From Pseudanabaena sp. Chao 1811 (GTDB taxonomy: Bacteria > Cyanobacteriota > Cyanobacteriia > Pseudanabaenales > Pseudanabaenaceae), in NCBI RefSeq assembly GCF_027942295.1, contig NZ_CP101416.1, forward strand, positions 124,001-188,000: DNA of 64,000 bases, in the 5' to 3' direction. How positions within the stretch are numbered: position 1 is the first letter of the stretch; each line of letters opens with the position of its first letter. The notes beneath the pieces are model-generated. The model was not told the origin of the DNA and did not search any database. It worked only from the letters and a program-made list of their open reading frames with translations. The position numbers and the translations under genes are program-made. Of the stretch, positions 8,355-11,664 are shown piece by piece.

Positions 8355-8366
8355 TACAGTTGAACG

Positions 8367-9209
8367 ATGTATGACAACACCTGTAAATTTTTAGTCGAAA
8401 ATTTCCCCACCGACTTTGCCAGTTGGCTCTTGGGGAAGCCGATCCCACTGACGAAACTGGAACCATCGGAGCTATCCGCCGATCCGATCCGTGCTGATTC
8501 CGTAATTCTTTTGGAATCAGCAGAAGTGATCATGCATCTAGAATTTCAAACCAAAACCGATGACACAATGGCTTATCGGATGGCTAATTACTACTTGCGG
8601 CTCTATGGCAAATATCCCACTAAGGATATTCATCAAACTGTCATCTACTTAAGAGAAACAGGGTCATCACTTGCCTATCAATCAAGCTTTAACACTAAAA
8701 AGTTAAATCACGAATTTAATGTCATTCGTCTTTGGGAGCAACCTACAGAAATTTTTCGACAGTATCAAGGACTGTTGCCTCTGGCAGTTTTAACAAAAAC
8801 AGGCGATCGCACGGAAACCTTAAGATAAGTTGCCCAACTAATTAATAATATTGATGATAAAAAAGTTAAAAGTAATGTCGCTGCTGCCACAGCAATTATC
8901 TCTGGGTTAGCATTAGATCATGAAGTAATTCAACGATTACTCAGGAGTGAGATCATGGAAGAGTCAGTAGTCTATCAAGAAATTTTGCGCGAAGGTTTAG
9001 CTAAAGGCAAAGCTGAGGGTTTAGCTAAAGGCAAAGCTGAGGGTTTAGCTAAGGGCAAGGTTGAAGCGACTAACCAAATTGCGCTCAATATGTTGCGTTC
9101 TAATATGTCTCCAGATTTAGTGGCTCAGTTAACTGGGCTAACCCTAAAACAAATCCAAAAACTACAAAAAATTGCGACAAAGCAGTCTAGTACAAGAAAA
9201 TCATCTTAA
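8367..9209 (+). pseudogene. Rpn/PD-(D/E)XK-type nuclease gene broken by one in-frame stop
   Basis: The first part (MYDNTCKFLVENFPTDFASW onward) and the last part (MEESVVYQEILREGLAKGK) are in the same frame, separated by a single TAA at 8826-8828. Translation continues through the gap without another stop (VAQLINNIDDKK then LRSEIMEES), so one base change in a CAA (Gln) or similar codon explains the break. The protein resembles the cyanobacterial Rpn family of recombination-promoting nucleases, with the expected D...E-x-Q pattern (LESAEVIMHLEFQTK). The tail carries Gly-Leu-Ala-Lys-Gly-Lys-Ala-Glu repeats. It may still give a 153-aa nuclease-domain fragment. It lies 13 bp after nblS, at the edge of an accessory patch. 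Confidence 0.8.
8994..9065 (+). repeat. Three tandem 24-bp coding repeats
   Basis: Three consecutive 24-mers (ggtttagctaaaggcaaagc + tgag) encode GLAKGKAE. The first two copies are identical and the third has four changes. They lie in the charged C-terminal tail of the broken Rpn-type gene. Such repeats expand and contract by slippage. Confidence 0.85.
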
Positions 9210-9253
9210 TGAAGTAATTAACTCACGCCAGTATAGAAACACCTAGCAAAATC

Positions 9254-10660
9254 ATGAACTATATAAAAGCTATTGAATCTGCAATCGGAATAACATTTCT
9301 CGATAAAAACTTACTTTTACAATCGCTAACTCATACAACTTATGCACGATTGATAGGTGATTCTGAAGCTCATAATGAATGGTTAGCAATTTTTGGAGAT
9401 ACTTTACTTGACTTAATTGTGGTTGAGCATCTCTACAAAATTAATGGCAATCGGTATGGTAAGCAATTTATTTCTGATGAACGAGATAAATTGGTAAAGA
9501 GGGATGAAAATCTGATCTTATTTTCAAAAAAAATCTTTCTCGATAAACTTGTCAGAGCTAAAAAGACAGACGATCGAATTAGCTTAGAAGATATCATCCG
9601 CTCGTTTAAAGCATTGTTAGCTGCTATATATTTGGATCAAGGATTAGGTATAGTCCAGAATTGGTTTATAAATCAATTTCTCTCGCCTCTAGACTCAGAT
9701 AGTAGTGAAACTATAAAGAATAATCTATCAATAGTTGATATAGCAGTTATTGAAAAGGCAATCTCTCACGAATTTTGCAATAAAGCAATCCTTCAAACAG
9801 CAATTACAGAGCGTTCTTATGCCGTGCGATGGAAAAATGCTGGTGACCATAATGAAGGGTTAGCATTGTTAGGAGATTCTTTATTAGATTTCATTGTTCT
9901 CGAATATCTCTACAACCTCAAAGGAAAATATGGGAAAGGTAAGTTGTCGAGTAATCGAGACAGGTTGGTGAACGATAATACACTAGAATTTATTGCTTGC
10001 AGATTGGAATTAGTACGCTTTATTCGCCACGATGGAATGTTGGGGGCTAAAAATTTGACGGATGGGTTAGAAGCTATATTAGGGGCAATTTATCTTGATG
10101 GGGGACTCAATGTTTCAAGAGATTGGCTCTTTAGGCAGATCCCAAAAGAAATCATTACTCAGATAGAAAATGAGTTTCACCAAGATGAATCGATGTCGCA
10201 AGGTTTACCTGCAAATATTTTCAGTACAGATTCCTTAATTTCATCAACAGGCATAAGCTACAGCAGACTTAATGATTTATTGAGTAATGGAAAATGGCAA
10301 GATGCTGATCTAGAAACAAAGGAATTGATGTTGCGTGTTGTCGAACAAGTTGACTTTTTGCCAAGCGGATTGATTGATACTTTTCCCTGTGAGGATTTAA
10401 AAATAATCGATCAACTATGGACATACTATTCAAGTGGTCGGTTTGGGTTCAGTACTCAGGTTGCAATTTTGAGAGATGTAGAATCAGATTGGGACAGTTT
10501 TGGGGATCGTGTGGGTTGGCGAGGACAGTCTAAGAATGATCGTATTTATAGCCTGAATGCTCCCAAAGGACATCTTCCTTCATCAGCTAACCGTCTTGCT
10601 GGGAAAGGTGCTAAAGCGAGGATGCAACTGTTGAAACGTGCGGAAATATGTAGATTGTAA
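9254..10660 (+). CDS. Fusion protein: two RNase III domains plus a GUN4 domain
   Basis: The 468-aa protein has three parts. Residues about 1-145 are an RNase III fold with HNEWLAIFGD (Glu42, Asp49), but the distal acidic pair is changed to Arg116 and Lys119, so this copy looks inactive. Residues about 155-295 are a second RNase III fold with HNEGLALLGD (Glu201, Asp208) and LTDGLEAILGAIYLD (Asp270, Glu273). It keeps four catalytic acids, though the E. coli Glu41 position is Ala. Residues about 333-458 are a GUN4 domain (LLSNGKWQDADLET, FPCEDLKIIDQLW, FGDRVGWR, SLNAPKGHLP). There is no dsRNA-binding domain. RNase III cuts double-stranded RNA; GUN4 binds porphyrins in chlorophyll synthesis and occurs in signalling fusions. 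The combination suggests an RNA-cutting module with a GUN4 sensor, but this is inference. The neighbours are accessory genes. Confidence 0.85.
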   Translation: MNYIKAIESAIGITFLDKNLLLQSLTHTTYARLIGDSEAHNEWLAIFGDTLLDLIVVEHLYKINGNRYGKQFISDERDKLVKRDENLILFSKKIFLDKLVRAKKTDDRISLEDIIRSFKALLAAIYLDQGLGIVQNWFINQFLSPLDSDSSETIKNNLSIVDIAVIEKAISHEFCNKAILQTAITERSYAVRWKNAGDHNEGLALLGDSLLDFIVLEYLYNLKGKYGKGKLSSNRDRLVNDNTLEFIACRLELVRFIRHDGMLGAKNLTDGLEAILGAIYLDGGLNVSRDWLFRQIPKEIITQIENEFHQDESMSQGLPANIFSTDSLISSTGISYSRLNDLLSNGKWQDADLETKELMLRVVEQVDFLPSGLIDTFPCEDLKIIDQLWTYYSSGRFGFSTQVAILRDVESDWDSFGDRVGWRGQSKNDRIYSLNAPKGHLPSSANRLAGKGAKARMQLLKRAEICRL

Positions 10661-10989
10661 AAAATTTGATTTGGATCTTGTTGATTCGCCAATTCTAAAG
10701 TAGGAGTTTGACTTATACTGATTCAAAAAATCATCCAAAAATCACAAGATATACCAGAAGAAAAACTTGTCAAAATTTATGAGCGTTGCACAATGAATGC
10801 GTGATTCGGATAATTCATAGTGGTGAAATTCTTGCTTAGTAGCTTCGTCATATTTTTTGTGTCTTTTAAATATGTAATGCCTAATTCCTTACTTTTGACT
10901 AAATTTAGGTAATGATTAATTACAACATTTCACTTCTAATTTACTAACAGTAAAACTTAATATTTAATCTTGTATTGGAGGATAAAAAG
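10661..10989. other. Intergenic region with a possible antitoxin remnant
   Basis: This AT-rich stretch has no full gene. Bases 10718-10804 read on the plus strand as LIQKIIQKSQDIPEEKLVKI and then eight residues to a stop. This resembles the N-terminus of small cyanobacterial antitoxins, but it has no ATG at its start and no toxin partner. It may be a decayed toxin-antitoxin locus. The final bases hold the ribosome site (ggagga, 10977-10982) of the next gene. Confidence 0.35.
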
Positions 10990-11232
10990 ATGCCAAACAT
11001 AACTCTTAGTAACGAGCAAGTTGTGGAGCTAGTTAAACAACTACCTCAAGAACAAAAAACAGAAATATTTAGATTTTTATTGATTTCTCAATGGCAAGAA
11101 TGGCAAGATTTGTCTAGCTATGGATCTGATAAAGTCAAACTTGCAGCACAAGAAAGAGGATACGACTGGGAAAAGATGTCTGAAGCAGAAAAAGAAGAAT
11201 TTATTGATGAAGTTTTACATGAAACTCCATGA
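10990..11232 (+). CDS. Putative antitoxin paired with a PIN toxin
   Basis: An 80-aa acidic protein beginning MPNITLSNEQVVELVKQLPQ. A strong ribosome site (ggagga) sits 7 bp before the ATG at 10990; the TTG at 10975 is upstream of that site and unlikely. The N-terminal helix (VVELVKQLPQEQKTEIFRFL) and acidic tail (EKEEFIDEVLHETP) are typical of small antitoxins encoded just before COG1569-type PIN genes. It overlaps the toxin gene by 4 bp (ATGA), which indicates translational coupling. The assignment rests on this pairing; no DNA-binding motif is certain. Confidence 0.7.
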   Translation: MPNITLSNEQVVELVKQLPQEQKTEIFRFLLISQWQEWQDLSSYGSDKVKLAAQERGYDWEKMSEAEKEEFIDEVLHETP

Positions 11233-11636
11233 AATACATTGTTGTTTTTGACACAAATATCTTGATTTCTGCATTGTTCTCACAAACTGGAAGTCCGTTT
11301 CGAGTCTTAGCACTAGCAAAAATTGGACAGATAGAGTCTGTAACCTGCCAAGAAATTTTAGACGAATTTGCTGAAAAGCTATTATTAAAATTTAAATTCT
11401 CTGAAGAAAAAACTCGACTTGCGGTTAATGAAATACAGAAGTTTTCGCGGATAGTGACAATTTCTGGAACACTTAAAGTCGTGCCGAATGATCCTGATGA
11501 CGATATGGTAATTGAGTGTGCGGTAGCTGGTTGTGCAACGCATATAATTACAGGTGATAAACACCTTTTGTCACTTAGTCAACATCAGAATATTGCGATC
11601 GCTAAAGCCACAGACTTTGTTAATTTATTTACTTAG
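11229..11636 (+). CDS. PIN-domain toxin (putative RNase)
   Basis: The 135-aa protein is a complete PIN domain of the COG1569 type. The N-terminal strand ends in FDTNILISALF with the first metal-binding Asp, followed by an acidic Glu near residue 43 (CQEILDEF), then DPDDDMVIECA and the late Asp in ITGDKHLL. PIN toxins cleave RNA with a Mg2+ or Mn2+ cluster and are neutralised by the upstream antitoxin. All acidic positions are present, so it should be active. It overlaps the antitoxin by 4 bp. Confidence 0.85.
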   Translation: MKYIVVFDTNILISALFSQTGSPFRVLALAKIGQIESVTCQEILDEFAEKLLLKFKFSEEKTRLAVNEIQKFSRIVTISGTLKVVPNDPDDDMVIECAVAGCATHIITGDKHLLSLSQHQNIAIAKATDFVNLFT

Positions 11637-11664
11637 TATGCTCAACTTTTAACCCGTCAAATCT

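Follow-up and report, generated by a model that had tools for sequence, protein, structure and literature searches.

A single open reading frame on the forward strand of Pseudanabaena sp. Chao 1811 encodes a 468-amino acid protein in which two ribonuclease III (RNase III) domains are followed by a C-terminal GUN4 domain. The best explanation for this protein, to which we assign a probability of about one in two, is that it acts as a single-site effector that would cut double-stranded RNA (dsRNA), with the two RNase III domains paired as an internal dimer and the cutting gated by GUN4. The gene is uninterrupted over 468 codons, and it lies in the window, which is the whole 64,000-nucleotide stretch of DNA that was analysed. 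Its parts are as follows.

9254..10660, + strand: RNase III - RNase III - GUN4 protein, 468 amino acids (open reading frame, Pfam matches, homologues, dN/dS)
9254..9694, + strand: RNase III domain 1 (D1), residues 1-147, catalytically degenerate in Pseudanabaena sp. Chao 1811 (Pfam, alignment, model)
9695..9724, + strand: linker joining the RNase III domains, residues 148-157, of low confidence in the model (structure prediction)
9725..10189, + strand: RNase III domain 2 (D2), residues 158-312, active-looking (Pfam, alignment, model)
10241..10603, + strand: GUN4 domain, residues 330-450 (Pfam, alignment to solved GUN4 proteins)

The Pfam profiles PF14622 (Ribonuclease-III-like; E = 5.2e-35) and PF00636 (E = 6.7e-24) each match two stretches of the protein over their cut-offs, and the GUN4 profile PF05419 matches residues 330-450 with an E value of 8.5e-32 (110.7 bits against a cut-off of 29.2). 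The initial annotation had read two RNase III folds and a C-terminal GUN4 domain in one protein, and this reading was borne out by the open reading frame and by all three profiles. No dsRNA-binding domain (dsRBD) was matched by Pfam in the 468-amino acid protein, where GUN4 stands instead. No Rfam RNA was found near the gene, nor was there an excess of promoter-like or terminator-like sites near it. The genome, a single contig of 4.73 Mb, separately encodes two Rnc-type RNase III enzymes, a Mini-III enzyme and a stand-alone GUN4-like gene, along with several further GUN4 proteins; the fusion is therefore an extra protein and not a replacement.

Five members of the triple-fusion family were found in three cyanobacterial families, and the domain order RNase III - RNase III - GUN4 is shared by all of them, so that the search for this domain order in cyanobacteria recovered it in four further genomes or replicons. 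These are an intact syntenic orthologue in Pseudanabaena biceps PCC 7429 (86% identity), a copy in Pseudanabaena sp. UWO311 (88% identity over residues 1-275, with a single break in domain 2), a full-length distant homologue in genome G551 (family f15), and a full-length homologue with 46% identity on plasmid pCHRO.01 of Chroococcidiopsis thermalis PCC 7203 (NC_019699.1). An assembly join of separate genes by sequencing error is ruled out by these homologues, and it is virtually certain that the triple fusion is real. The gene occurs in 3 of 26 Pseudanabaena genomes, and no further members were found in 1,904 genome searches, which overlap and are nearly all cyanobacterial. A scan of 85,000 genomes with two peptide patterns recovered only the two Pseudanabaena copies; because these patterns are narrow, the rarity of the family rests mainly on the 1,904 overlapping searches. 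The UWO311 copy (L078, near 9325) is frameshifted directly after the codon of domain 2 that corresponds to E. coli E117, and it is either a pseudogene or possibly an assembly error. A phage origin of the fusion was also considered and rejected, since no full-length relative was present in phage records or viral contigs.

The arrangement of the two RNase III domains was predicted with AlphaFold. The model of residues 1-315 was built from an alignment of 13 rows, in which the extra rows were viral RNase III sequences that all aligned to domain 2, and it reached a pLDDT of 82 and a pTM of 0.83; a two-row alignment gave a pLDDT of only 35. When the model was compared with the PDB by Foldseek, Drosha ranked first, followed by Dicer, and both were matched over both domains, with query TM-scores of 0.6-0.8. 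The best matches extended over approximately 340-390 alignment columns at 0.7-0.8 (top 0.81), whereas the score of single RNase III chains was only about 0.4. The model thus predicts that the two domains pack face to face in the manner of an RNase III dimer. Only two aligned sequences were available for domain 1, and Drosha and Dicer are among the structures known to AlphaFold, which makes the dimer a prediction and not a measurement. Given this model, an internal (intramolecular) RNase III dimer is highly probable, and the earlier suggestion of an internal pseudo-dimer as in Dicer is supported by the prediction.

The catalytic positions of RNase III are E41, D45, D114 and E117 in E. coli numbering (PMC9291653, PMC3839596), while E38 is an RNA-contact residue; the residue roles are taken from PMC9291653 and PMC8708148. 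Both domains were aligned with the RNase III of the same genome to place these positions, which gave the following residues.

9386..9388, + strand: Ala45, at the position of the catalytic Glu E41, domain 1 (alignment)
9398..9400, + strand: Asp49, at D45, the sole remaining catalytic acid of domain 1 (alignment)
9599..9610, + strand: Arg116 to Lys119, at D114 and E117, domain 1 (alignment; PMC8708148, Table 1)
9854..9856, + strand: Glu201, at E38, an RNA contact and not a metal ligand, domain 2 (alignment, literature)
9863..9865, + strand: Ala204, replacing the catalytic E41, domain 2; Ala also in Mini-III (alignment)
9875..9877, + strand: Asp208, at D45, domain 2 (alignment)
10061..10072, + strand: Asp270 to Glu273, at D114 and E117, domain 2 (alignment)

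By alignment, the residues at these positions are A204-D208-D270-E273 in domain 2, which retains three of the four catalytic acids; in domain 1 they are A45-D49-R116-K119, and one acid is retained. The initial annotation was right that domain 1 is degenerate, with Arg116 and Lys119 in place of the late acidic pair, and wrong that domain 2 keeps four catalytic acids, as Glu201 aligns with E38 and the E41 position is held by Ala204. Because alanine occupies E41 in both domains, the full tetrad is present in neither. The E41 position is alanine in 10 of the 10 RNase III domains of the triple-fusion family, as in Mini-III, and E65, another RNA-contact acid, is replaced by lysine or arginine in all ten. 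Among canonical cyanobacterial Rnc proteins, many have Cys, Ser or Asn at the D114 position, and E41, D45 and E117 are invariant in 17 of the 17 sampled.

Lys119 of domain 1 is the same change as the E117K mutation of E. coli rnc70, which is inactive and retains dsRNA binding (PMC8708148), and for this reason domain 1 should be catalytically dead. The active site of domain 2 is like that of Mini-III, which is an active enzyme (PMC5141509). The genome's own Mini-III reads A-D-T-E at positions 41/45/114/117, alanine at position 41 is also found in the solved Mini-III sequences, and domain 2 has the same type of site, with alanine at E41 and with D45 and E117 kept (A204, D208 and E273). In E. coli, the E41A mutant binds dsRNA poorly, and its activity, seen in excess magnesium, is only weak (PMC8708148). 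The nuclease of the fusion is probably active.

If it is not, the protein may be a regulator whose RNase III domains both bind structured RNA without cutting it, under the control of GUN4. The loss of E41 throughout the family, the weakness of E. coli E41A and the binding-only behavior of E117K mutants all agree with such a protein. Other cyanobacteria also carry tandem RNase III-like proteins that lack GUN4 (approximately 282-361 amino acids; L087-L093, L117 and L125), in which the D45/E117 pair is mostly lost in both domains by alignment, which shows that tandem RNase III proteins can persist in a dead state. However, D45 and E117 are kept together in one domain or more of every triple-fusion protein, the domain concerned differs across lineages, and Mini-III enzymes cut without E41, so that a catalytically inactive regulator seems unlikely to us. 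Among the tandem proteins, L125 has an intact tetrad in domain 1 and a dead domain 2, and no published description of these proteins was found.

The history of the two domains was analyzed using trees of single domains. All D1 domains form one clade and all D2 domains another, and the two together form a group that stands apart from Rnc; when the six active-site columns were masked, these groups had support of 96/92 for D1, 88/87 for D2 and 99/95 for the two combined. Mini-III falls outside the triple-fusion group, on a long branch. The D1 and D2 domains are thus separate sister clades, and one duplication preceded the triple-fusion family. At positions 41/45/114/117, the Pseudanabaena proteins read A-D-R-K in D1 and A-D-D-E in D2, whereas in Chroococcidiopsis the roles are reversed, with A-D-E-E in D1 and A-N-D-K in D2. 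The G551 protein, with A-D-N-E in D1 and A-D-D-E in D2, keeps D45 and E117 in both domains. A domain swap in place of reciprocal loss was rejected, as the grouping of the active-looking domains gave an AU p value of 0.015 with the active-site columns masked, and the grouping of both Chroococcidiopsis domains was rejected as well (AU p = 0.018). The tree and the AU tests indicate that the position in the chain was inherited and that the sites were lost in opposite halves.

The active-looking half is also the more conserved one within Pseudanabaena (93% for D2 versus 84% for D1), and in Chroococcidiopsis the end branch of D1 is shorter than that of D2. The view of the protein as one active-looking and one inactive domain, proposed from the Chao 1811 sequence, is strengthened by the opposite assignment in Chroococcidiopsis. 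Reciprocal loss is what a requirement for one working site, to be supplied by either half, would produce; since three independent lineages are involved, the pattern is suggestive and not proof.

The fusion gene is accessory. It lies in an interval that varies between genomes, with the following features around it.

8355..11664, no strand: variable interval (insertion hotspot) from a conserved histidine kinase to LivG (genome comparison)
8367..9209, + strand: Rpn/DUF2887-like gene, split in two open reading frames, upstream, ending 44 bp before the fusion gene (open reading frames, Pfam, comparison)
10975..11636, + strand: small putative antitoxin and PIN-domain toxin, downstream (open reading frames, Pfam)

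The interval is nearly empty in two Pseudanabaena relatives, G396 (130 bp) and G409 (397 bp), and in the others it either carries cassettes (Rpn, PIN, YoeB-type or other) or does not allow a comparison. In the relative G406, the Rpn/DUF2887-like gene is one 276-amino acid open reading frame (L152:2680-3507). The location in an accessory patch with toxin-antitoxin genes, also part of the initial annotation, was confirmed by the hotspot comparison and by Pfam matches for the neighbors (PIN, Phd/YoeB). The Chroococcidiopsis copy is on a conjugative plasmid, where it stands beside, and divergent to, a DISARM/Dpd-like helicase with matches to DpdE/DrmD models and an N6-methylase that matches DrmMI/type IIG models. 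In G551, the fusion follows a 258-amino acid protein with a weak PADLOC match to PDC-M15A, a homologue of which is found in the Pseudanabaena hotspot of G406 and G410. These proteins of 252-258 amino acids (L152:1656-2411, L154:5793-6548 and L123:2050-2811) have a PD-(D/E)XK-like motif by eye and no Pfam match. The fusion is surrounded by conflict genes, yet the neighbors differ at each of these few loci, and by analogy a role in defence is proposed here only tentatively.

A location in a hotspot may also be that of a decaying gene with no present function. The broken UWO311 copy and the split Rpn gene in the window would fit with decay, but the dN/dS value between the two intact copies, from Chao 1811 and P. 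biceps, is 0.25 for the whole gene, and the NG86 values are 0.28 for D1, 0.22-0.31 for D2 and 0.20 for GUN4, so each domain is at or below 0.31 and purifying selection acts on all three parts. The dN/dS value against the broken UWO311 copy is higher than that against P. biceps. With intact homologues present in other families as well, decay is very improbable.

The best-known GUN4 relatives bind precursors of chlorophyll and heme. The GUN4 domain of the fusion aligns to solved GUN4 proteins with E values of 3e-15 to 1e-8, and it shows the features by which kinase-type GUN4 domains are marked, FPCxDL, GRFGFSxQ and GHLP, with the core GUN4 residues conserved. The LxNxLR motif linked to bilin binding is absent from the domain, and its place is taken by SSANRLAG in Chao 1811 or SAAIRAAG in the relatives. 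The N219G mutant of CrGUN4 loses bilin binding and keeps porphyrin binding (PMC10156173), so the missing motif is compatible with the binding of porphyrin. In the loop before QSKN (approximately 10520-10525, residues 423-424), four residues are missing compared to the relatives, such as VNQV of P. biceps.

GUN4 is a frequent C-terminal module of cyanobacterial signalling and effector proteins. Caspase-GUN4 and NACHT-GUN4 proteins are encoded in the same genome (L002, L007), and kinase-GUN4 and CHAT-GUN4 proteins are found in other genomes (L009, L034). It has been proposed that GUN4 regulates the fused enzymes by tetrapyrrole level or acts as a sensor in cyanobacterial conflict systems (Kaur et al., PMC7159879). 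That the GUN4 domain of the fusion binds a tetrapyrrole may be suggested at slightly less than even odds. It could instead have no tetrapyrrole ligand and serve as an adaptor, bringing the nuclease to a partner protein while the nuclease part works as in the best explanation; this role is compatible with the other readings. Its recurrence at the C-terminus of unrelated effectors is what adaptor domains show, and the absent LxNxLR motif and the shortened loop in Chao 1811 point the same way; against it are the porphyrin binding of CrGUN4 N219G and the conserved core residues. We consider an adaptor somewhat unlikely. A PADLOC match to the defence protein PD-T4-6 was rejected, as it spans only positions 299-447 of the 450-position profile, which are the GUN4-like C-terminal part.

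GUN4 also belongs to the Mg-chelatase cofactor family, and antisense RNAs and several RNase III enzymes occur in cyanobacteria (PMC10989914). From this, the fusion might be a housekeeping enzyme tied to chlorophyll synthesis, with GUN4 as a gauge of the tetrapyrrole level and with photosynthesis transcripts or antisense RNAs as the targets that the nuclease trims. Such a role is improbable for a gene that is present in so few Pseudanabaena genomes, is rare elsewhere and is carried either by a plasmid or within a hotspot, in a genome that already has two Rnc enzymes, a Mini-III and a stand-alone GUN4-like gene.

The single-site, GUN4-gated effector would work as follows. The two RNase III domains, which the tree traces to one old internal duplication, are predicted to fold together as one intramolecular dimer in the manner of Drosha and Dicer. 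The dsRNA would be held in the groove shared by both domains, and because all domains of the family lack E41 and, in Chao 1811, the D45/E117 pair is present only in domain 2, the cutting of one strand only would be expected. One competent partner suffices in the RNase III heterodimers of trypanosomes (PMC9508840). GUN4 occupies the usual place of the dsRBD and probably switches or targets the nuclease upon binding a ligand, which would most likely be a tetrapyrrole, as proposed for other GUN4 fusions. The neighborhood, the patchy distribution and domain analogy suggest a phage or plasmid conflict, or a shut-down response, as the likely setting. The family-wide lack of E41, the absent dsRBD, the UWO311 frameshift and the missing LxNxLR motif count against this explanation. 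A more specific picture, that of a Dicer-shaped bacterial one-strand cutter that is gated by tetrapyrrole through GUN4, acts as an immune or dormancy effector reading the photosynthetic state, and may hold its sole site in either half, is doubtful.

No RNase III-GUN4 fusion was described in the open-access literature searched, and the open-access papers found on two or tandem RNase III domains concern, by their titles and abstracts, only eukaryotic or ordinary bacterial enzymes. According to a 2022 review, bacterial RNase III enzymes are of two kinds only, an RNase III domain with a dsRBD and Mini-III, and both are homodimers (PMC10989914). A bacterial RNase III dimer formed within one chain, whose working site lies in one half or the other depending on lineage, would be a third arrangement, in which nature itself tests whether one site is enough for RNase III or two are required. 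Through GUN4, a connection of RNA cutting to tetrapyrrole chemistry can be put to the test, and the fusion provides a case for deciding whether cyanobacterial GUN4 fusions are sensors at all. The protein may serve in defence or in control, with a tie to light metabolism.

No earlier description of this RNase III arrangement in bacteria seems to exist; fusions to GUN4 are in themselves a known practice. The protein belongs to the RNase III superfamily, and it shares the RNase III fold and the dimer groove with canonical Rnc (class 1). It differs from Rnc in its lack of a dsRBD, its incomplete tetrad and its separate clade, and its score with the NCBIfam equivalog for canonical RNase III, TIGR02191, is 151 bits, below the cut-off of 166.25. 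Mini-III (MrnC, class 4) is similar in that it has no dsRBD and combines alanine at E41 with D45 and E117, but it is a single-domain enzyme that the genome encodes as a separate gene, whereas the fusion has two domains plus GUN4 and is nearer in sequence to Rnc-type and tandem RNase III proteins. Drosha and Dicer (class 2 and 3), the best structural matches, have two RNase III domains per chain in an internal dimer; the fusion has the two domains by sequence and the intramolecular dimer by prediction only. In contrast to these enzymes, it is bacterial, has no helicase, PAZ, platform or dsRBD and has one likely catalytic site instead of two, and its domains arose by duplication inside a cyanobacterial family. 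The cyanobacterial tandem proteins also have two RNase III domains, and their D1 domains are the nearest clade to the domains of the fusion; they differ in having no GUN4, another C-terminal tail and E41 kept in D1, and most have lost both sites. In the trypanosome KREN/KREPB pairs, one competent and one non-catalytic RNase III domain form the dimer and one strand is cut, but the two domains belong to separate zinc-finger proteins of an editing complex (PMC9508840). The kinase-, caspase-, NACHT- and CHAT-GUN4 proteins likewise carry a C-terminal GUN4, mostly of the FPCxDL type, on a signalling or effector domain (PMC7159879). The best reading is that the RNase III fusion is a new addition to these cyanobacterial GUN4 fusions, from which it differs in that its effector is a dsRNA-type nuclease.
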